Shown piece after piece: positions 39,539 to 50,367 of a DNA stretch of 63,196 nucleotides. Position 1 is the first letter of the stretch. Every line of letters begins with the position of its first letter. Where the stretch lies: NCBI GenBank assembly GCA_013140605.1, contig JABFSL010000080.1, forward strand, positions 1 to 63,196. The letters are read 5' to 3'. This DNA comes from Anaerolineales bacterium (lineage in GTDB: Bacteria; Chloroflexota; Anaerolineae; Anaerolineales; Villigracilaceae). The notes beneath the pieces are model-generated. The model ran no database searches. It saw nothing but the letters and a program-made list of their open reading frames with translations, and had not been told where the DNA came from. Both the position numbers and the translations under genes were made by a program.

Positions 39539-40588
39539 TTATTTTGGTGCGAAGTTTGAAAGAAGAAATACAAGCCCATCCAAATTTCTTTCTACAATTT
39601 CGATAACGATTATGTCTGGTTTAAATTGCTGAATCGATTCTTCAGTTAAATATTTGGGCATATTATTTTGGATAAAATGGGATTTCCCGAAATTCATACT
39701 TAAGTAGTTGTTCAAGTACAGACTGCCAAAAGAATCATGAAACATAAGAAGTGACGGTAGTTTACTATCGGAAATCCATGAATATTGGTTATAACCAAAG
39801 GTGTCACCGGGAGGTAAAGTGGGATGTAGTGTCTGAACAAAAAGTTCTTTGGGCGTAAAAAAGAAACTTGTCTCTGTTATAAAATTTACATGCATTAACG
39901 CCCTTGGGATACCAAGTATATCGGGGTTTTTAGTTACCAACTCCATATCTGATGTTTCGTAGGGTTTGAGCTCAGGGTACGAACCTCTAAGAGTATTCAT
40001 GATTGTTGTATATGCTATAAAGGCTCCATAGCCATTCCAATGAGTGTCCGTTTTGTAATAAACATCTTGATTCTGCCTTGCTTTTTTTAGTGCAGGCCTA
40101 AGATCCAATATTACCGGCAAATTGTTGCTTTCCAGATAAGAAATTAAACTATCAAGCCTAGATTGTGTTGGTAGGGATTTCATCTGTTCGGGAAGTTTAT
40201 CTGGATAAATCGTGGCTTTGTTTGGGGTAACTACAATTAGCAAGGTGATCCCTTGCGATTCTAGGTATTGATTAAGAGTCCCCAGCTTTTCTCCTAATAT
40301 TTTTTTGTTGTCTAATTCTTTTACGTTTTGAAAATCATCAAGATTACCACCACCTGTATATTCCATCCATCCATCTTTGCCTATTAAGGTCTGAGGGAAA
40401 ATTCTGTCTCCTATTTTCATGCGTAACAGGGTTACTCTCTCTATCAGGAAATCCTTTTTATATAGGTTTTCCTGAATTTTTGTTGTGCCAAGGCTTATAC
40501 TCTGTGTCATCACATAGATGATAGCGCAGAGTATAGAGAGAACAAAGAATTGAGTATATCGATAACGTAGAAGGGATGCTTTAGGCAT
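39539..40588 (-). CDS. AlgX/AlgJ-like SGNH O-acyltransferase partner
   Basis: 349 residues with an N-terminal membrane anchor (about 10-30). The extracytoplasmic domain has the AlgX/AlgJ features: FPQTLIGKDGWMEYTG, LLIVVTPNKATIYPDKLPE, the catalytic Asp/His in VYYKTDTHWNGYGAFIAY and the Ser in SLLMFHDSFGSLYLNNYLS. These proteins take an acyl group delivered by an MBOAT partner and put it on a polysaccharide outside the cell. The MBOAT gene lies 16 bp upstream on the same strand. The polymer is unknown; no alginate genes are present. Confidence 0.85.
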   Translation of the reverse strand: MPKASLLRYRYTQFFVLSILCAIIYVMTQSISLGTTKIQENLYKKDFLIERVTLLRMKIGDRIFPQTLIGKDGWMEYTGGGNLDDFQNVKELDNKKILGEKLGTLNQYLESQGITLLIVVTPNKATIYPDKLPEQMKSLPTQSRLDSLISYLESNNLPVILDLRPALKKARQNQDVYYKTDTHWNGYGAFIAYTTIMNTLRGSYPELKPYETSDMELVTKNPDILGIPRALMHVNFITETSFFFTPKELFVQTLHPTLPPGDTFGYNQYSWISDSKLPSLLMFHDSFGSLYLNNYLSMNFGKSHFIQNNMPKYLTEESIQQFKPDIIVIEIVERNLDGLVFLLSNFAPK

Positions 40589-40604
40589 GGTGTAATTCCA
40601 TTTA

Positions 40605-42056
40605 TTAAAATTTGGCGTAAAGATTCGGCAAAAAGCTATTGCCTAATAGCAGTGCGAGTCCCAGAATAAATAGGAGGATAAGAGAAATATCTTCAAAAAA
40701 TTGGAAAGGAAAGAAGAGATTTTCATGATGTTTTTCAAGACTTGTGCGCAATTGATTCCACATCGATGAAATAGGCATTGAGAAGAAAATACCTGTAATC
40801 AAAGCCAAAATAAAAGATGGCTCAATAAATGGCATGGGAGTTGACACGCTAAACGGAAGCAGTGTCAGCTCTGAAGTGTCGCCGAATAAACGGCGAAAAA
40901 ACCAATACGAAAAGCGTAGGTTGTTTGAACGAAAAAATACCCATCCCACAGTGATAATGGACAAGGTATATATGTGGCGCATTGGTCTCCACGCTTGTTT
41001 TAGCCAACGACCAAAGCCCAGGCTTTCCAACGCCAACGCGAATCCATGAAGCAGTCCCCAGACAATAAATGTGGGCTTAAACCCATGCCATAAGCCAGTT
41101 AAGATAAAAACAATTAGTATATTAATTTGTTGTCCTGCCCATCTAAAGCGTCGTCGCTCCAGTGGGTAAAATACATATTCACGAAACCAGGTTGAAAGAG
41201 TAATATGCCAGCGGCGCCAAAAATCACTGATGTTTTGAGCAATATATGGGAAATTAAAGTTTTCAGGCAGTCGAAAACCGCTCATTATTCCCAACCCAAT
41301 TGCCATATCGGTGTAGCCGGCAAAATCAAAGAAAATTTGTAATGTGTAAGCGATCAATGCCAGCCATGCGAATTTAGGCTCAACATTGGCTGTGGGAAGA
41401 TTAAATACAGCATTGGCCATCAGCGCCAGTTGATTTGCAATTAATGCCCGTTTTACAAAGCCAGCCAGTAAACGCCGAAAGCCTGCCGCAATATCATCAA
41501 TGGACGGATCAAGCTGCTGCATTTGAAGGGCAAAGGGTTTGTAGCGGGTGATAGGCCCGGAAATAAGTTTTGGAAAAAACAATAAATAAGCCGAAAATGC
41601 AATGAAGTTTTTTTCGACAGGAATCGTACCCCGCCAGATATCCACCAGATAAGAGATCATTTGAAAGGTCACATAGGACAAGCCAATTGGTACAGCCAGC
41701 CCAGCCGCGGGTGCGATCCAATTTTGAGGCAGGGGGAGCCGCGCAAAAACATTATCGCTATATGCAATAATGTTTTTGAAAAAGGAAAGTATTGCTAAAT
41801 TGATTCCAACCCCAGCCCAAAGCCAAAGTAGGGAGTAATTCCCTTTTTCCTTTGACTTGGCGATGGCAAGCCCCAACAGATACCCGGAAATGAGGATGCC
41901 GCCCAACCACCACAAAGCCGTCCTCTCTCCCCAGGTAAGAAAGACAACGCTCGCCACTAAAATGATGGGCAGTCTTAAGCATTGAGTACTGACCAGATAT
42001 ATTGACAGGAAAACTGGCAAAAACAAAAATAGGAAAAGCGGCGAAGAAAGGTCCAT
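40605..42056 (-). CDS. MBOAT O-acyltransferase, AlgI-like
   Basis: 483 residues, polytopic. Diagnostic segments: WLALIAYTLQIFFDFAGYTD, MAIGLGIMSGFRLPENFNFP, ISDFWRRWHITLSTWFREYV and the catalytic His in LTGLWHGFKPTFIVWGLLHG. AlgI-like MBOATs move an acetyl (or other acyl) group across the membrane for polysaccharide modification together with an AlgX/AlgJ protein, which follows here. The start codon lies 3 bp after the stop of a 47-residue chimeric ORF made from the duplicated ABC-F start. Confidence 0.9.
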   Translation of the reverse strand: MDLSSPLFLFLFLPVFLSIYLVSTQCLRLPIILVASVVFLTWGERTALWWLGGILISGYLLGLAIAKSKEKGNYSLLWLWAGVGINLAILSFFKNIIAYSDNVFARLPLPQNWIAPAAGLAVPIGLSYVTFQMISYLVDIWRGTIPVEKNFIAFSAYLLFFPKLISGPITRYKPFALQMQQLDPSIDDIAAGFRRLLAGFVKRALIANQLALMANAVFNLPTANVEPKFAWLALIAYTLQIFFDFAGYTDMAIGLGIMSGFRLPENFNFPYIAQNISDFWRRWHITLSTWFREYVFYPLERRRFRWAGQQINILIVFILTGLWHGFKPTFIVWGLLHGFALALESLGFGRWLKQAWRPMRHIYTLSIITVGWVFFRSNNLRFSYWFFRRLFGDTSELTLLPFSVSTPMPFIEPSFILALITGIFFSMPISSMWNQLRTSLEKHHENLFFPFQFFEDISLILLFILGLALLLGNSFLPNLYAKF

Positions 42057-43146: not shown

Positions 43147-44832
43147 TTACTTCTCACTCCCCAACTCCCTCAAAAACTTTTCCTTATTCGCCGAACGCGC
43201 CGTCTTTCCGCTGGATGTTTTCACGATCCATTTTTCTCCGACCACCTTGACGTGCCTCAGCGCGATGGCGGAGCTTTTTGTCACATGCTTGCGGATCGCG
43301 TCTGCGATGACTTCCTGCTCGGACGGTTCTTCGCTGTCCACTTCGGCGATGATGACGACTTCCTCTGTCCCTGCTTCTTCATCGTACATGCCAAACGCCA
43401 CCGTGCGGCCAGGGTGTACGCCGGGCACTTCACTGGTCAGCGCTTCGAGGTCCTGCGGATAAATATTTTTTCCGCCGACGATGATCATATCCTTTTTGCG
43501 GCCAGAGACATACAACTCACCGTCCGCGAGAAAACCATAATCGCCAGTCATGTACCAGCCATCGCGCATCGCCAATTCGGTCGCATCGGGGCGGTTGTAG
43601 TAACCCGTCAACATGCAGTTACTTTGCAGCATGATCTCACCCACCATGCGGTCAAGGTTGTCCTCACCGTTTTCATTGATCACGCGGATTTTCGTGTTGT
43701 CGAGCGGACGTCCCGACGACATCACTTTCATTGACGAGCGACCAGCCACCGGCGGAGTTACGATGCGCTCCATCATGAAGGATTCGCGGTCGATCTCAAC
43801 GACAGTTGGTCCAGCTTCCAATGAACTTTGAGTGACCCCGAAGACATTCTCCGCCATCGCGTATGACGTTTGCAAAGCCAGCGGATTCAGCCCAAACTTC
43901 TCGAACTTCTCCGCGAAGAGTCGATGGCTTTCGGCATGGACAGGTTCTGAGCAATTGATGATCGCCCGCCATGTGGAGAGGTCAACGCCTTCAAGGTTTC
44001 GCTCGCGAATTTTATTCGCGCAAAAGTTGTAAGCAAAATTCGGGAGCCAGCTTAATGTCCCTTTGTATTGCGAGACAGATTGCATCAACTTGTACGGTGC
44101 GCGCACCCAATCGAAAGGTGACAACTCAACGACCGGCACGCGCAAAAGAACGGGCATGAGGAAGCAAGAGATCAATCCCATGTCGTGATACAACGGCAGC
44201 CACGACACTATGACATCTTTTTCAGGGTCAAGTTGAATGGCTTTGCTGTACGCCTCAAGTTGATTGAGCACAGCCTTGTGCGAAAGCGCCACGCCTTTTT
44301 GCAGTCCCGTTGTCCCTGAAGAATGCTGCAAGATAACAATATCTTCTGGCGCGGCCTTCATGCCTTGCAGTGAATCGAAGTCAGGCTCAGATTGCGGCTC
44401 GATGGTGTTTGTGACTATAACTTTACGAATCGAGTCGCCGGGTACGAGTGCCGAACGCGCCTCAGATTCAAATTCCGCAGATGTGATGATCGCAACTGGT
44501 TTTGTAATTGAAATCAGCGAAGCCAAGTCTGCGCGATAGCGTTCTGGTGAAAGTTTCTCGCTCAAGAACGGCATGATCGCGGGAATTGCGCCGTGCAATA
44601 CTGCGCCCCAAAATGAGAAGGCTAAATCCTGCCCGTGTTGAAGGATTAAGAGCACAACCTCGCCCGGTTGTATTTCTTCGCGGGCATAAGTCAATGCATA
44701 TTGATTCGCGCCAAGGATCAGCTGACGATAGGTCAACTCCTGGTCGGGTTGACTTGAGTACTGTAAAACAATGCTCCTTTTTTCAGGAACTTCCAAAAAG
44801 GAGCGGTGTAAAAGATTTGAGAGTGTTGTCAT
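43147..44832 (-). CDS. Fatty-acyl-AMP ligase (acyl-ACP activating enzyme)
   Basis: 561 residues, ANL superfamily. The P-loop is LQHSSGTTGLQKGVALSHKA (about 168-187). Further motifs: WLPLYHDMGLISCFLMPVLL as in FAAL-type ligases, SYAMAENVFGVT, the DGWYMTGDYGFLADGELYVS hinge with catalytic Asp, GRKKDMIIVGGKNIYPQDLE and the C-terminal catalytic Lys in VKTSSGKTARSANKEKF. FAALs form acyl-AMP and load acyl carrier proteins. The ACP gene lies about 150 bp upstream on the same strand, so the two should work as the DltA/DltC-like part of this operon. The acyl chain is not predictable. Confidence 0.87.
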   Translation of the reverse strand: MTTLSNLLHRSFLEVPEKRSIVLQYSSQPDQELTYRQLILGANQYALTYAREEIQPGEVVLLILQHGQDLAFSFWGAVLHGAIPAIMPFLSEKLSPERYRADLASLISITKPVAIITSAEFESEARSALVPGDSIRKVIVTNTIEPQSEPDFDSLQGMKAAPEDIVILQHSSGTTGLQKGVALSHKAVLNQLEAYSKAIQLDPEKDVIVSWLPLYHDMGLISCFLMPVLLRVPVVELSPFDWVRAPYKLMQSVSQYKGTLSWLPNFAYNFCANKIRERNLEGVDLSTWRAIINCSEPVHAESHRLFAEKFEKFGLNPLALQTSYAMAENVFGVTQSSLEAGPTVVEIDRESFMMERIVTPPVAGRSSMKVMSSGRPLDNTKIRVINENGEDNLDRMVGEIMLQSNCMLTGYYNRPDATELAMRDGWYMTGDYGFLADGELYVSGRKKDMIIVGGKNIYPQDLEALTSEVPGVHPGRTVAFGMYDEEAGTEEVVIIAEVDSEEPSEQEVIADAIRKHVTKSSAIALRHVKVVGEKWIVKTSSGKTARSANKEKFLRELGSEK

Positions 44833-44863
44833 TTATTTTTTATCCGAAGATTTATCTGAAAAT

Positions 44864-44945
44864 TAACCACGAAGACACAAAGTCTCAAAGGCTCAAAGAA
44901 AAAAACTTTGTGATTTTGTGTCTTTGTGACTTTGTGGTGTAAAGC
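44864..44945. repeat. Palindromic ACAAAG-unit repeat between ACP and ligase genes
   Basis: AACCACGAAGACACAAAGTC on the left and GTGTCTTTGTGACTTTGTGG on the right form a long imperfect stem, the same family as 35886 and 53366. Confidence 0.75.
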
Positions 44946-44986
44946 TTCAGGCAATCTGCTTAATCTGCAAAATCTGCGGATTGATT

Positions 44987-45232
44987 TTATTGCCGCGAAG
45001 CGATCAAATCAGTCAGCTGGGATAAATTATCGAATGTCTGGGCATTCAACTCGGTATCCTCGATCCGCACCCCGAAGGTGTCTTCGACAAACATAGCCAG
45101 GTCCATCAAACTAAACGAATCGATCAAGCCGCTGGAGATCAGGGCTTCATCAGGTTTAATAACCTTATTCGCCTGCTTCAATATTTTTTCAGCGATGAAT
45201 TTTGCAAGCGCAGATGTGATGTTTTCGGTCAT
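44987..45232 (-). CDS. Acyl carrier protein
   Basis: 81 residues from ATG 45232, supported by TAGGAGAACAACAC; the upstream in-frame part belongs to a repeat. The phosphopantetheine Ser lies in ISSGLIDSFSLMDLAMFVED (about Ser40). The acidic helix after it (EDTFGVRIEDTELNAQTFDN) is typical of ACPs. It is too different from housekeeping AcpP (which has GADSLD) to be assigned to fatty-acid synthesis. It probably carries the acyl group made by the neighbouring ligase, like DltC in D-alanylation. Confidence 0.9.
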   Translation of the reverse strand: MTENITSALAKFIAEKILKQANKVIKPDEALISSGLIDSFSLMDLAMFVEDTFGVRIEDTELNAQTFDNLSQLTDLIASRQ

Positions 45233-45253
45233 GTGTTGTTCTCCTATTTTTTT

Positions 45254-45299
45254 TGCGTCATTGCTTCGTCGGGAAGAGCGCCCTCCTCGCAATGACGAA
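45254..45299. repeat. Short GCGTCATTGCTTCGTC-type repeat in the dlt-like operon
   Basis: GCGTCATTGCTTCGTCGGGA on the left and CCTCCTCGCAATGACGAA on the right form a dyad of the same family as 37392 and 47371. Confidence 0.75.
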
Positions 45300-45300
45300 T

Positions 45301-46254
45301 TTATTTATTCAACCCATTTCGCACAGCATCCAAAGCCTGCAATGCAGTGAGATTTCTCCAGGGCCAGGCGCGTTCCATGTTCGCGGGATCGTCAAAATAA
45401 TAACTTTTACCTATGGACAAATGGAAGCCATCATCAAGGCTTAGGTCAAATCCGTTATTGGGCAGGTTGTGAACCGCCGCCCAAAAATTCCATAAAGGAA
45501 TATCGTATTCATTGGCAATCGCGGCGATCTCGGCATTGATACTGTTGTTGCCTTCAATGTTATCAGCTTTCGTGCCGACGATCGGTATCACCCCCTGCGA
45601 AATGCTGTATTCCACGATCTGGCGCATATAGGTCCCATATTTTTCAGCGGACTGCTGATTGAAATTCGTTTCCATGCTGATCAGTACCACCGATGGATGA
45701 TTCAATCGAATTTCACAAGCCAGCGGGGTCTCACCCTGATTGCATTTTTTAGGATCAGCTCTCAGCGGAGAAAGAACCGCCGCTACATTGAATCCATCTT
45801 TAACCGCCAGGCTTTGACGTGAGAACGATCCTTCATAATAATCGATCGTGGATTGCAGATAAGCATACTCCTGTCCCAAACCATATTGATTGGGATGATC
45901 GAATCCCACCAGAAAGAAATCGGTGCTGGTCTGGCAATCGCCAACTTTGGAAAACGCATTTGGGTCATTGCCTAATTCAAGTCCATGACGATAGATCTCA
46001 AGAACAGCATCACTGACTGTCGGTACGATCGGAAGATTTTTCCATTCGTCTGCCGCGAGTGTTGGCCGCGGCATAGATGTGTTTGATACCTTGGTGGCAT
46101 TTGTCGGGGGTTGTGTCGCGTGTGATACGCTTTTTTGCGGAGTTGATGTGCTGTCTTTATGCGATGGGATAACTGCTGTTTGAGCAGCGCCGCCACCGCA
46201 GGCAATGATCAATAAGGCAACCGTTAATATCAATACGAATCGAACTCTATACAT
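45301..46254 (-). CDS. SGNH-like lipoprotein of the dlt-like operon
   Basis: 317 residues from ATG 46254 (GGAGTAGGA before it); an upstream ATG at 46278 would overlap the previous gene. Lipobox LIIAC, then a Ser/Thr/Pro linker. The globular part has SVVLISMETNFNQQSAEKYG and GFHLSIGKSYYFDDP, a pattern like the last block of SGNH/GDSL hydrolases (D-x-x-H as DDGFHLS). The N-terminal GDS block is not clear: DAVLEIYRHGLELG and KVGDCQTSTDFF may replace it. It probably sits on the outer face of the membrane and acts in acyl transfer or removal. Confidence 0.65.
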   Translation of the reverse strand: MYRVRFVLILTVALLIIACGGGAAQTAVIPSHKDSTSTPQKSVSHATQPPTNATKVSNTSMPRPTLAADEWKNLPIVPTVSDAVLEIYRHGLELGNDPNAFSKVGDCQTSTDFFLVGFDHPNQYGLGQEYAYLQSTIDYYEGSFSRQSLAVKDGFNVAAVLSPLRADPKKCNQGETPLACEIRLNHPSVVLISMETNFNQQSAEKYGTYMRQIVEYSISQGVIPIVGTKADNIEGNNSINAEIAAIANEYDIPLWNFWAAVHNLPNNGFDLSLDDGFHLSIGKSYYFDDPANMERAWPWRNLTALQALDAVRNGLNK

Positions 46255-46268
46255 TCCTACTCCAAAGT

Positions 46269-47363
46269 TTATTTGCATGCCGCCGTGATGACGGGCGCAA
46301 GTTTTTCGGCCAGTTGCGCCTCGCCCGTTGGCGTGAGATGAATTGCGCTATTGGTAAATTCATTCGCAGGCACGGCATCCCAAAGATCAACATAGACCCA
46401 ATTATTTTTCTGGCTTTGCTCGATCATCATGGCGCGATATTGGTCATATGCCCAACGCGGATAAAAGAAATTATAGCGGATGTCACTATTTTTTCCTGCA
46501 CTGATCAGCATCGGTTCGTTGACAATTACGACAGGCGTATCACCCGCAATGCTCATTCCAGTTTCGAGCGCATTGAATGCGAGTAAGTTTTCATCCATTG
46601 CTGGCGGCTCGAACTCGTGAAATTTCTGGTCAGTATCAAAATCAGTTTGCGCCTTTTGATAATCTGTTGGATAAATTTGGTCAATGCCAGTCGCGTCCCA
46701 CATCACGCCATAGATTTGCAGGCGGAAAACATCTGCGAGAGATCTCTGCTTCCCGATGATGGTACTACCCCAAAATGAGTCCCGGCTAAAAGCAGGGTCA
46801 TTCGGATCAACCCTAAGCCCGGACCTGCTTGCCAGTCGAAGGAGAGACTCCTCGTTGTTGGCGACCAATGGCGAAGCGACCTGTTTTTCCTGCGGAAACG
46901 CTTCCAAAGTTGTCATCCAAATGACAAGGTCAGGCTGGTATTCCATTCCACGTGAAAGTAAAAGCACATCCTTTGTCAATGAAATGGTTGGATATCCCAA
47001 GTTGTAGACACGGACATTTTTTCCACAAACTGAAATGTTTGCAGAATTAAGTTGACCCGCCAACGTCTCTTCGGGTTTGAGCAAAGTTCCCCACACGGAC
47101 GAGTCGCCGATCAAAATCACACGGAATTCATCGGCCTGTTTCGGGTCGCCGCTGATTTCATGTGACGCAAACATTGCATCCAGATCAAACAGACTCAGGT
47201 TGTAAGCCTTTGCAGAATTTTCTCCAAACGGTAGTCGCTCACGCCCTGGAAAGATGGTGTTATACGCCGAAAGATGCCCGATCCCCGGCTGCAGGAGCGC
47301 GAATAGTAAATTGATAATAATAAAAAGAAGAAAGCCTTTTAGGATGATATTAAGTGTTTTCAT
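46269..47363 (-). CDS. DltD-like SGNH hydrolase with membrane anchor
   Basis: 364 residues: N-terminal membrane helix (about 8-27), then an extracytoplasmic SGNH domain with block I Ser in FRVILIGDSSVWGTLLKPEE, a Gly/Asn pair in VRVYNLGYPTISLTKDVLLL and the catalytic Asp/His in FTNSAIHLTPTGEAQLAEKL. In Dlt systems DltD is the extracellular partner that transfers D-Ala to teichoic acid. Here it is next to a MBOAT and an ACP/ligase pair. The next gene starts within 15 bp. Confidence 0.82.
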   Translation of the reverse strand: MKTLNIILKGFLLFIIINLLFALLQPGIGHLSAYNTIFPGRERLPFGENSAKAYNLSLFDLDAMFASHEISGDPKQADEFRVILIGDSSVWGTLLKPEETLAGQLNSANISVCGKNVRVYNLGYPTISLTKDVLLLSRGMEYQPDLVIWMTTLEAFPQEKQVASPLVANNEESLLRLASRSGLRVDPNDPAFSRDSFWGSTIIGKQRSLADVFRLQIYGVMWDATGIDQIYPTDYQKAQTDFDTDQKFHEFEPPAMDENLLAFNALETGMSIAGDTPVVIVNEPMLISAGKNSDIRYNFFYPRWAYDQYRAMMIEQSQKNNWVYVDLWDAVPANEFTNSAIHLTPTGEAQLAEKLAPVITAACK

Positions 47364-47370
47364 AAAGTTT

Positions 47371-47466
47371 CACCATGTCGTTGCGAGGGCGATGCACTTT
47401 CGCCCGAAGCAACCTCCTGATTTATGACGAAGGTTGCTTTGTCGCGTTTGCTCCTCGCAACGACAT
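47371..47466. repeat. GTCGTTGCGAGG-type palindromic repeat between MBOAT and SGNH genes
   Basis: GTCGTTGCGAGGGCGATGCA on the left, GCTCCTCGCAACGACATTC on the right, with a nested GAAGCAACC/GGTTGCTTTG stem. It fills the gap between the two genes and may act as an mRNA stem. Confidence 0.8.
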
Positions 47467-48894
47467 TCATCTCATACCAAACAACTTCAAAAATACCTGC
47501 ATCGAAGCGGATGTTGACGATAAGGCAAAAAATATCCAGCCGAGTGCGACGAAGTTAAATGTAATCACAATTCCACTCACATTTATCAGAGACTTTCGTA
47601 AAGGCGTGTTCGCCCACTCCCCAGCGCGGACTTTGGTCATATCGTTCCAACGGTTGTGAACAAATAACCCAATCCCATGCCACAATCCCCACAGCGCAAA
47701 ATTCCATGTGACGCCGTGCCAGAAGCCGATTAGTAACATGGTGGCAATTTGAGTCAACGCGATCATGACCACCATCGGCATGGGCTTGTTCCATGATCTC
47801 AGCCAGCGTGTGACTGGATTGAAGAAATAAGCGCGGAACCATTGAGTCAGCGTCATGTGCCAGTTGTTCCAGAACTGGGTCAGGTTTGGCTTTTGATAAG
47901 GCGCGGAAAAATTCTCCGGTAATTGAATCCCCAGAAATTTGGAAATGCCGAGAGCAATGTCTGTATAGCCGCTAAAGTCAAAGTAGATCTGAAATGCGTA
48001 GGCGTAGAGCAGAATCCACATCCACCCAGCCGTGCGGACTTGTAGCGCGTTCGTGTCATTCAAGGCGATCAAGGCCAGCGCATCTGCCACGACAAATTTT
48101 TTGAACAAGCCAACCATAAAGCGTTGACCTGCAATTAATAGTTCATCGTTTCCAAGCGTGGATGGTTTGCGCAGGTCTTTGATAAATCTTTCGATGCGGT
48201 CAATGGGACCTGCTGTGAAGGCAGGAAAAAAAATAACATAAGTCACGTACTCGGAGAGATCAACGGCGGGCAAACGTCCCATTTGACGGTCACGCAACGT
48301 ATGGATGATGCGGAAGGCGACATACGAAAAACCCAGCCAGCGCAGGTCGATGGCTTTTGCCTCAGCGAGCGATTGATGCGTAAGAGATCGAATCCCATAG
48401 CTGACCCAATATGCCAGCGCGGGAATTTTGATTGCAAGAAAAATAGCAATAAGACCGATGATGCTTATGGCTAATAAAGTTGCATTGAAGCGCGTGAGGC
48501 GAGTCACCAAAAGGTAGATGATGCCTGAGAATGCCAGCACCAGCATCAAGGTCAAGGGCTGAGGCGGGCGGGATGGGGTGAGAATCGAGTCAAAGGGCAG
48601 GTATCGAGTCAGGTTTAGGAGTAAAACCGTTCCAGCGAGAATCGCAATCACGATCCAATTCTTTTTCTCGCGGCGTGTTTCTTCTTTGGCAGTGATATAC
48701 CAACTGAAAACTGTGATGATGAGCGTGGCAATAGGAATCCAAAAATCAAAGCCACGCAGGGGTAGGGCGGGCTGCAGCCAGAAGATGACAAGGACGCTTG
48801 CGATCAGCAGAAAATATTTTCGGCCGCGTTCACGCATCACCAGCCCCCAGAACAAAGCGGCCGTCGCAACGATCAGGATTTGAATGATCGTCAT
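47467..48894 (-). CDS. MBOAT acyltransferase of the dlt-like operon
   Basis: 475 residues, about ten membrane segments. Typical MBOAT pieces: WILLYAYAFQIYFDFSGYTD, IALGISKFLGIQLPENFSAP, LTQFWNNWHMTLTQWFRAYF and the catalytic His in LLIGFWHGVTWNFALWGLWH. It is not close to the AlgI-like protein at 40605 in its N-terminal half. It follows a 38-residue DltX-like peptide with only 1 bp between stop and start. Role by analogy with DltB: takes the acyl group from the ACP in the cytoplasm and passes it through the membrane to the SGNH partners. Confidence 0.9.
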   Translation of the reverse strand: MTIIQILIVATAALFWGLVMRERGRKYFLLIASVLVIFWLQPALPLRGFDFWIPIATLIITVFSWYITAKEETRREKKNWIVIAILAGTVLLLNLTRYLPFDSILTPSRPPQPLTLMLVLAFSGIIYLLVTRLTRFNATLLAISIIGLIAIFLAIKIPALAYWVSYGIRSLTHQSLAEAKAIDLRWLGFSYVAFRIIHTLRDRQMGRLPAVDLSEYVTYVIFFPAFTAGPIDRIERFIKDLRKPSTLGNDELLIAGQRFMVGLFKKFVVADALALIALNDTNALQVRTAGWMWILLYAYAFQIYFDFSGYTDIALGISKFLGIQLPENFSAPYQKPNLTQFWNNWHMTLTQWFRAYFFNPVTRWLRSWNKPMPMVVMIALTQIATMLLIGFWHGVTWNFALWGLWHGIGLFVHNRWNDMTKVRAGEWANTPLRKSLINVSGIVITFNFVALGWIFFALSSTSASMQVFLKLFGMR

Positions 48895-48895
48895 T

Positions 48896-49012
48896 CTAAA
48901 AGCCCTGATAGATCCATGTTGGACTGCTGTCTGCGGTGAAGATGACCAGAGCTATCAGAATCAGGCAGAACAGCAATGCCCAAAGATTCTCGCGAGAGAA
49001 GATGCGTTTCAT
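48896..49012 (-). CDS. DltX-like 38-residue membrane peptide
   Basis: ATG 49012 to TAG 48896-48898; a single nucleotide separates the stop from the MBOAT start. A basic start MKRIFSREN is followed by one membrane helix (about 10-26) and a short outer tail that ends TWIYQGF-stop. DltX peptides have the same layout, single helix and a C-terminal F-I-Y-N-x-F motif with an essential Tyr near the end. Here W-I-Y-Q-G-F is the equivalent. No good Shine-Dalgarno site precedes it. Too short for routine gene calling. DltX assignment is by pattern and position. Confidence 0.8.
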   Translation of the reverse strand: MKRIFSRENLWALLFCLILIALVIFTADSSPTWIYQGF

Positions 49013-49075: not shown

Positions 49076-49465
49076 TTACTGCACCCCACATACAAGCCAG
49101 TCGCCGCCCTGTTCCACAACTTGATAGGTGCGGGTGGACAGGTCAAGTTCCTGATTTTCGCCGTTGTAGCTGAGGATCATCTTTCCATCACAGTGGACGA
49201 GGGTCATCTCGCCATCTGTCCCTGTTTCCTGACAGGCAAAACCTTCAAGCGTTGATGTCACTGCCTGGAGTGAATCCAGTTCGATCAGCGCGTCAGATTC
49301 CCAATCAGCGCACGAAAGAGAAGAGAGTTTGTCGGCGTCGTTCGCTACAATGGAGTTGACATAGCCTTCAACCGCTCCAACCGCAGGGCTTGCTGATGCG
49401 CTCGATCCGCAGGCGGATAATAGGATGGCAAGGCCAAATATACAAACGAGTAATAGTTTTTTCAT
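49076..49465 (-). CDS. Small lipoprotein, function unknown
   Basis: 129 residues, signal with lipobox LSAC (Cys19), then a compact domain that begins VGAVEGYVNSIVANDADKLS and ends GGDWLVCGVQ. This layout resembles small NTF2-like extracytoplasmic domains, and the Cys residues (about 52, 77, 91 and 126) could form disulfides. It lies just upstream of the dlt-like operon on the same strand; the 63-bp gap holds another dyad (GGACGATAGACC...GGTCTGCGGTC). It may be the first gene of the operon. Confidence 0.65.
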   Translation of the reverse strand: MKKLLLVCIFGLAILLSACGSSASASPAVGAVEGYVNSIVANDADKLSSLSCADWESDALIELDSLQAVTSTLEGFACQETGTDGEMTLVHCDGKMILSYNGENQELDLSTRTYQVVEQGGDWLVCGVQ

Positions 49466-49665
49466 GAATTTCTCCGAGTAGGTTTCAAAAATGTAGTAAC
49501 GACTTTAGTCATTTAGGAAAAAGCGACTGAAGTCGCTACTACAGGTTTTGTGAAGCGTTGATTATTCAAAAACAATGGCGGATTATAGCATGGAGATATT
49601 TGTGGGAATATCTTTTTCTGCAAATGCGGGTTTTATTGTGCAAACCAATCCTTCAGGAGTTTCAC

Positions 49666-50367
49666 TTGAACAATTACATTGCTCTGATCATCACGTTCGC
49701 TCTTTCAATGGTGTTTTTGCGCTCAATGGATTTCATCGCCCACCGCGGCTGGATGGACAGCAAACTCAGCCGCAAAGTCATCCACATTGGGACAGGTCCG
49801 CTGTTTGTGTTGTGCTGGCTGCTCTTCCGTGATACGCCTGATGCGCGCTGGCTGGCCGCCCTTGTACCTTTTGCGATCACAGTTCAATTTGCATTAATCG
49901 GTTTTGGGGTGATCAAGGATGAAGCCTCTGTTAAATCCATGTCCCGCACGGGCGACCCGAAAGAAATTTTACGCGGTCCGCTTTATTATGGGATCATGTT
50001 CGTAGTGTTGACTCTGGTCTACTGGAAAGATTCCCCAATTGGCATTATCGCCTTAATGATGATGTGCGGCGGCGATGGCATTGCCGACATTGTGGGGCGT
50101 CGCTTCACTTCGCCGAAACTTTCATGGAGCAGTGAAAAATCAATTGCAGGGACAGTGGGCGTTTTTGTGGGCGGCTGGGTGATGTCGGTTGTAATTATTT
50201 TTGTATATATTCAGGCTGGTATTTTCTCCGCCCCCGTTACCAATTACCTTTTACCAATTACCGCCATTGCGCTGGCAGGTTCATTGATCGAGTCATTGCA
50301 CTTCAAAGATATTGACAACGTCACTATGACTTTGGCTTCGGTGTTGACCGGGAGTTTGTTCTTCTAA
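49666..50367 (+). CDS. Phytol/dolichol kinase-like or CTP-dependent polyprenol kinase family protein
   Basis: 233 residues from a TTG at 49666 with the site CAGGAGTTTCAC; an open frame reaches 36 codons further up but has no SD. About six to seven membrane helices. Family features: SRKVIHIGTGPLFVLCWLLF near the N-terminus, then MMMCGGDGIADIVGRRFTSP, KLSWSSEKSIAGTVGVFVGG and the final LIESLHFKDIDNVTM segment, typical of DGK1/VTE5/SEC59-type enzymes that phosphorylate lipid alcohols with CTP. The substrate (phytol, polyprenol or diacylglycerol) is not predictable. Confidence 0.8.
   Translation: MNNYIALIITFALSMVFLRSMDFIAHRGWMDSKLSRKVIHIGTGPLFVLCWLLFRDTPDARWLAALVPFAITVQFALIGFGVIKDEASVKSMSRTGDPKEILRGPLYYGIMFVVLTLVYWKDSPIGIIALMMMCGGDGIADIVGRRFTSPKLSWSSEKSIAGTVGVFVGGWVMSVVIIFVYIQAGIFSAPVTNYLLPITAIALAGSLIESLHFKDIDNVTMTLASVLTGSLFF

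Follow-up and report, generated by a model that had tools for sequence, protein, structure and literature searches.

Introduction

The Dlt pathway (DltX, DltA, DltB, DltC, DltD) serves Gram-positive bacteria to attach D-alanine to teichoic acids of the wall. An acyl-tyrosine shuttle has been described for its DltX and for PatA, with FXYXXF as the published motif, and in the consulted sections of the same source the MBOAT-SGNH pathways other than Dlt have neither a carrier protein nor a microprotein (PMC12148441). The insertion that is specific to fatty-acyl-AMP ligases (FAALs) has been linked to the use of acyl carrier protein (ACP) rather than of CoA, by a mechanism that is treated as unsettled in the sections of the review consulted (PMC11837247).

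Here we analyse a gene set that appears to combine these elements. It is located on contig JABFSL010000080.1 of the Anaerolineales assembly GCA_013140605.1 (3.93 Mb in 132 contigs), of which positions 1 to 63,196 were studied as one stretch of DNA (the window, 63,196 nucleotides). An earlier note, made from the DNA letters alone, had read the genes as a dlt-like acylation operon that uses an acyl-AMP ligase and an ACP. This reading is supported by the FAAL-specific insertion of the ligase, by the conservation of the genes and by their co-occurrence in related genomes, and we put the probability at about 72 per cent that the set encodes a Dlt-like trans-membrane acylation system, which is charged by a fatty-acyl-AMP ligase and in which an SGNH protein esterifies a surface acceptor.

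Results

Ligase and acyl carrier protein

The ligase was matched best by the NCBIfam model for fatty acyl-AMP ligase, with a score of 349 bits (cut-off 600), and the best PDB matches were 3pbk, a fatty acyl-adenylate ligase, and 3kxw, which is labelled as saframycin synthetase and which we take to be a FAAL. The FAAL-specific insertion was full in the operon ligase alone; eight further AMP-binding proteins were found in the genome, of which seven lack it and one (L185) has it in part. The SWLPLYHDMG motif was found in all 86 orthologous frames of at least 500 residues, some genes being counted twice. Whether the enzyme could be an ordinary CoA ligase, a question raised with the first description of the locus, can be answered in the negative as far as its sequence goes, from the insertion and the motif taken together; the insertion by itself would rule out this candidate. 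The enzyme family leads us to infer a fatty acid as the substrate rather than D-alanine. Since the feeding enzyme is of a type that activates fatty acids, these are probably what the set delivers to the cell surface.

The carrier protein named in the earlier note was recognized by its PP-binding domain (Table 1). Its serine lies within GLIDSFSL or a closely similar sequence in 95 of 96 frames (some of them repeats), and the genome contains one match to a phosphopantetheinyl transferase. The two DltC models gave 20.1 and 15.6 bits with this protein, below their cut-offs of 68 and 52.

Linkage of the MBOAT with the FAAL and the ACP

In an order survey (201 genomes of Anaerolineales), the FAAL orthologue and an operon-type MBOAT occurred together in 110 genomes, the FAAL alone in 11, the MBOAT alone in 13 and neither in 67 (odds ratio 51, Fisher p 4e-28, kinship uncorrected). 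Only FAAL places whose E value was under about 1e-130 entered these counts; weaker FAALs (about 1e-60 to 1e-84) do not figure in them, and split genes were entered as one piece each. The earlier note had raised the question whether the ligase and the ACP sit elsewhere in relatives, and on this point the linkage held for the most part. The FAAL orthologue was less than 10 kb from an operon-type MBOAT in 75 of 122 places. Of 20 genomes picked for an MBOAT locus without a ligase, 17 carried the orthologous FAAL elsewhere and three did not; all 17 separate FAAL clusters contained an ACP, seven the peptide and six a copy of the operon-type MBOAT (MBOAT1). The genomes with a lone MBOAT or a lone FAAL did not conform and are weighed below.

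Related loci were studied in a set consisting of the best 80 of 367 loci, many of which end at contig edges; by their record titles all are from Chloroflexi, Anaerolineae or lower Anaerolineae groups. An ACP was present in all 37 of these loci that have the FAAL. No ACP was detected next to the FAAL of L204. One genome (G076) splits the set between two loci (L105 and L144), one with the MBOAT and without the peptide, the other with peptide, SGNH protein, ACP and FAAL and without the MBOAT.

It is conceivable that the MBOAT set uses another acyl-ACP, for example one from fatty acid synthesis, and that the FAAL is a salvage enzyme or an accessory charger. Genus g47 (L189-L191, L194, L195) and genome G174, which keep the order lipoprotein-peptide-MBOAT-SGNH-SGNH-ACP and have no orthologous FAAL (one of them in a single-contig genome), would fit this explanation, whereas the strong co-occurrence, and the fact that most genomes have the FAAL together with the ACP, argue against it. 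So does the correlation of 0.92 between MBOAT and FAAL distances over 20 linked loci, although common ancestry alone would give the same value. Altogether, we regard this alternative as unlikely. The 13 MBOAT-only genomes contained no FAAL orthologue, only two weak matches (1e-25 and 1e-21), and the ACP was retained in six of the 12 such loci examined (G247 was left out). Because these six loci keep the ACP without the FAAL, the acyl-ACP donor looks like the constant element across these systems, with the FAAL as the usual, not the only, charger. Several of the MBOAT matches in g47 contain one internal stop.

The microprotein and the MBOAT

The 38-residue single-helix peptide ending in WIYQGF, which the earlier note had pointed out, was confirmed and proved to be conserved: a peptide with the ending W-I-Y-x-x-F/Y was present in 74 of the 80 related loci (WIYQGF in 70, WIYLGF in two, WIYQGY and WIYQNF in one each). 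The figure of 75 obtained in one tally includes L049, which is masked there so that the motif is not visible. Compared with the FxYxxF criterion for DltX, these 74 loci have W in place of the first F and otherwise fit, with the last F changed to Y in one; an annotated DltX encoded by an L. crispatus plasmid terminates in FIYNEF. The ratio of nonsynonymous to synonymous polymorphism (pN/pS) of the peptide was 0.25 over 72 loci, which shows that it is under selection as a protein. In a phylum survey (201 genomes of Chloroflexota), a 21-base degenerate DNA pattern for WIYQGF-stop matched 18 genomes, the reversed control none. The 18 genomes, all of one class, were identical to those matched by the MBOAT profile, and the pattern and the MBOAT were side by side in 17 of them and on separate contigs in G372. 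In Leptolinea sp. HRD-7 (L221, AP024711.1) lipoprotein, peptide and MBOAT are carried on a 212 kb plasmid, all annotated as hypothetical.

The MBOAT assignment of the earlier note was borne out by a Pfam match (Table 1), and the protein has the length of DltB. Its only PDB relatives at E up to 0.001 were DltB proteins (about 1e-44), and with the DltB model TIGR04091 it scored 224.7 bits, under the cut-off of 375. His346, His393 and His406 were invariant in 15 aligned sequences; His393 presumably corresponds to the catalytic His of DltB. The polypeptide ends in KLFGMR at the end point of DltB, without the two extra C-terminal helices and the motif of the AlgI/PatA type, whereas a second MBOAT of the window (MBOAT2, 40605-42056) and three reference MBOATs extend tens to about 100 residues further and end in a motif of their own. 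In a 13-row tree the operon MBOAT was placed with two DltB sequences and separated from five one-piece MBOATs with a support of 99/98; the MBOAT of L159 formed a long branch of unsure placement in the same tree.

The MBOAT would fit an ordinary Dlt system with a diverged DltA, still moving D-alanine: it is nearest to DltB both in PDB and in the small tree, and the layout of the genes is the same. Other findings disagree with this explanation. The insertion, the motif and the nearest PDB entries all mark the ligase as a FAAL, the scores of the ACP with the DltC models were far below the cut-offs (see above), and the best match of the genome to the DltA model TIGR01734 reached 118 bits (cut-off 560), DltA over the cut-off being found in two of 101 genomes of the order. 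The DltD family PF04914 had no match in the whole genome at E up to 1. Since the genome has neither a DltA over the cut-off nor a Pfam DltD, plain Dlt was dropped, and its diverged version seems to us scarcely credible.

One-piece MBOATs beside ACP-FAAL pairs

Ten of the 11 FAAL-only loci were examined (G217 was left out). Two of these genomes (G129 and G160), which have no operon-type MBOAT, carry the orthologous ACP-FAAL pair next to a one-piece MBOAT of 497 residues with a Pfam MBOAT match. The one-piece MBOAT is on the same strand at L205 and divergent at L207, and the C-termini are APFIYQGF and APFVYQGF. Both have a neighbour of SGNH length (353 and 364 residues); that of L205 gave a DltD match of 17.9 bits, below the cut-off, and that of L207 no match in Pfam. 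Altogether 11 one-piece MBOATs were collected by pattern match over the examined loci, a list that omits L159 (ending in FVYP) and the window, and the other nine end in FIYFQF, FIYVQF, FIYARF, FIYWSF or FLYFQF. The YQGF ending thus tracks the ACP-FAAL pair even with another type of MBOAT, which is a strong hint, from two cases only, that the microprotein tail is the partner of the ACP-FAAL donor. By their sequences, the one-piece MBOATs of G129 and G160 are natural fusions of the microprotein motif with an MBOAT. A more distant FAAL (about 30% identical) was seen with an ACP and a one-piece MBOAT at L159:4290-9000 (G080) and at L160 (G072); the MBOAT of L159 ends in PVFVYP, is preceded by a weakly GDSL-like protein and has pentose-phosphate genes alongside.

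The window contains, at 39539-42056 on the minus strand, a separate pair consisting of a one-piece MBOAT ending in NLYAKF and an SGNH protein of the ALGX family, which is likely of the acetyl type. MBOATs closer to that of this pair than to that of the operon were seen in the flanks of six of the 80 related loci. As this pair adjoins the operon, acetylation of the PatA/PatB kind with an unrelated FAAL-ACP pair in the neighbourhood had to be considered. The operon MBOAT, having no extra C-terminal helices or motif of its own, was dropped as a PatA-type enzyme, and the ACP-FAAL pair recurs with this type of MBOAT across the order, also beside the one-piece MBOATs ending in YQGF, so that we hold this explanation to be very improbable.

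The two SGNH proteins

The earlier note had listed two SGNH-type proteins. Their Pfam GDSL matches were 21 bits (first) and 20 bits (second), both under the cut-off of 32.9, and it is the predicted models that support the fold. The SGNH alignments (A2 and A3) comprised 47 and 41 sequences out of 54 each.

The model of the first SGNH protein (mean predicted local distance difference test (pLDDT) score 85.6) has the SGNH fold, with TesA as top match (Z 16.9). DltD (3bma) was aligned with a Z of 14.7 over 284 residues at a root mean square deviation of 5.0 and ranks below small esterases. GDS88 was conserved in all 70 relatives and His342 in 69 of them.

The model of the second protein (pLDDT 86.5) likewise has the SGNH fold, with a top Z of 15.7 to SGNH esterases. 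This protein was found to have a cysteine instead of the serine of block I: GDC, not GDS, was present in all 74 relatives, of which 65 have Asp283 and 70 have His286. In the structure alignment, model residue 106 was matched to the first residue of TesA and of 5b5l, an S10A esterase, and to residue 6 of 4jko, an S15A esterase. Provided that the first strand is ungapped, Cys115 would be at the position of the nucleophile, which in TesA we take to be Ser10. Cys179 and Cys188 are also invariant, and for this reason Cys115 may have a disulfide role instead. A literature search for SGNH/GDSL proteins with a cysteine nucleophile found none, with most subscription journals outside its coverage; one paper matching SGNH with catalytic cysteine reportedly concerns a thioesterase.

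A recent duplication as the origin of the two SGNH proteins was rejected, as profile comparison gave a probability of 1.1%, that is, no relation. Single-linkage clustering had placed the two families in one cluster, perhaps via double-length frames. At L071, L076, L092 and L112 there are several copies of the Cys-SGNH gene per locus, some of the frames being 650-700 residues long.

Layout of the gene set

The six genes that the earlier note had placed in order on one strand were all found there, spaced by 1 to about 155 bases (Table 1). A single base separates the stop codon of the peptide from the ATG of the MBOAT, and the two SGNH genes share 10 bases. A scan of the region for promoters and terminators yielded about as much as shuffled sequence, so that the operon boundary is not derivable from it.

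The set is larger than previously described. A small lipoprotein gene 63 bases upstream of the peptide also belongs to it, because it was matched in 75 of the 80 related loci, mostly shortly before the peptide (in 67 of the 71 loci that have both). The protein is probably NTF2/SnoaL-like: weak DUF4440 and SnoaL_3 matches were obtained with eight and four of 25 relatives, and none with the window protein. Four further cysteines were invariant across the 25 aligned relatives.

Table 1. Genes of the acylation set in the window, with the evidence for each assignment
Feature	Position	Strand	Evidence
Small lipoprotein, 129 residues, lipobox LLSAC, probably NTF2/SnoaL-like	49076..49465	-	Sequence, recurrence in relatives
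DltX-like microprotein, 38 residues, C-terminal WIYQGF	48896..49012	-	One hydrophobic helix (by eye), Tyr35 in candidate acyl-shuttle motif
MBOAT, 475 residues, DltB-like	47467..48894	-	Pfam MBOAT 68.6 bits
SGNH acyltransferase candidate (first SGNH protein), 364 residues, N-terminal helix, DltD analogue	46269..47363	-	GDS88, His342
Second SGNH-fold protein, lipoprotein (Cys27)	45301..46278	-	GDC with Cys115, Asp283/His286
Acyl carrier protein, 82 residues from the likely ATG	44987..45235	-	PP-binding 30.9 bits; phosphopantetheine Ser in GLIDSFSL
Fatty-acyl-AMP ligase, 561 residues	43147..44832	-	AMP-binding 144.6 bits, FAAL-specific insertion, SWLPLYHDMG

A polytopic membrane protein that by eye resembles prenol/dolichol kinases is encoded at L033:7656-8384 (minus strand) and perhaps at 49558-50367 (plus strand) of the window. 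The L033 gene had no Pfam match, and neither it nor the open reading frame of the window had a match in NCBIfam. Proteins of the L033 type were seen upstream, on the opposite strand, in 19 of the 80 loci.

Discussion

The order of the proposed relay is inferred by analogy from the mechanism of Dlt and PatA/PatB, as given in the consulted sections of PMC12148441. The ligase would adenylate a carboxylic acid (in all likelihood a fatty acid) and load it onto the dedicated ACP. The MBOAT would take the acyl group from the ACP on the inside and transfer it through the membrane tunnel to Tyr35 of the microprotein, which would pass it to Ser88 of the first SGNH protein on the outside. This SGNH protein would then esterify the surface acceptor, with the Cys-SGNH and NTF2-like lipoproteins perhaps serving as partners on the acceptor side.

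Several observations weigh against this reading. In two genomes of the order a DltA over the cut-off exists alongside this system. In the first SGNH protein block V is SxxH instead of DxxH, with Ser339 in the usual place of Asp in 67 of 70 relatives. The 13 MBOAT-only genomes show that the FAAL is not the sole possible charger, and conversely there are the 11 genomes with the FAAL and no operon-type MBOAT; in the other eight of the 10 FAAL-only stretches examined no MBOAT match was seen. Among the 80 related loci the ACP was visible in 38, the FAAL in 37 and the Cys-SGNH protein in 56, numbers that are low partly because contigs end. The peptide was absent between lipoprotein and MBOAT in five of the 80 loci, and masked at the site in L049; three of the genomes with peptide-less loci were searched, and each had the peptide elsewhere. 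Pfam DltX gave no match among 23 peptides tested. Finally, the length of the acyl chain is not readable from the sequence.

The acceptor could also be a lipid, a glycolipid or the small lipoprotein of the set itself, in which case the system would remodel lipids or acylate proteins. Two lipoproteins recur in the set, and the recurrent neighbours that were annotated (a PIG-L-type deacetylase, a TauE permease, a release factor) include no glycan polymerase, most neighbour clusters being unannotated. In contrast, the MBOAT-SGNH pairs treated in the consulted sections of PMC12148441 modify polymers, and we consider a lipid or protein acceptor rather unlikely, though the least so of the alternatives. 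By tomography, diderm-like envelopes that lack known outer-membrane genes have been reported in Viridilinea and Chloroflexus, and multilayered ones are likewise on record for the phylum (PMC13319060). Such envelopes in Chloroflexota make an acylated surface polymer an attractive candidate for the acceptor.

The system leads us to expect acylated material on the surface of bacteria with a poorly understood envelope. A bolder version, which we regard as a long shot, is that Anaerolineae build an acyl-rich outer layer by exporting fatty acids singly to a surface polymer, by way of a carrier-fed MBOAT and a one-helix shuttle, and that a further relay step forms a thioester on the Cys-SGNH protein outside the cell. 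Were it true, such a layer would suggest how diderm-like envelopes could arise in the absence of known outer-membrane genes. The Cys-SGNH protein is a candidate for testing, and the acyl shuttle is seen here as a swappable module, present as a separate microprotein or as a motif fused to the MBOAT.

Of the known systems, the FAAL-ACP starter units of polyketide and lipopeptide pathways, such as JamA/JamB, in which a FAAL loads a fatty acid onto an adjoining ACP (PMC11837247, sections consulted), have this pairing in common with the locus. They differ in that there is no polyketide or peptide synthase in the set described here and that the ACP pairs with a trans-membrane acyltransferase. The term MBOAT is absent from that review, and a literature search for MBOAT combined with fatty acyl-AMP ligase, with most subscription journals outside its coverage, found nothing. 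PatA/PatB and AlgI/AlgJ/AlgX have in common with the present system an MBOAT with an SGNH protein and the Tyr acyl-shuttle motif. In PatA, however, the acyl donor is acetyl-CoA and the motif is part of the MBOAT itself, whereas here there are a separate microprotein and an ACP.

The closest system is Dlt, which shares the carrier protein, the short MBOAT, the one-helix microprotein with C-terminal F/W-x-Y-x-x-F and the membrane-anchored SGNH protein. The differences are that in the present set the charging enzyme is a FAAL, and that there are an additional Cys-SGNH lipoprotein and an additional NTF2-like lipoprotein. To our knowledge, transfer of a fatty-acyl type group is not known for teichoic acids. 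Judged by its genes, the system works like Dlt without being a member of Dlt. Besides Dlt, it would be the second lineage to have both a carrier protein and a microprotein, if measured against the pathways in the consulted sections of PMC12148441. Taking these comparisons together, the gene set is, by its sequence, a new variant of MBOAT-SGNH acylation, which has a carrier protein and a microprotein and is charged by a FAAL.

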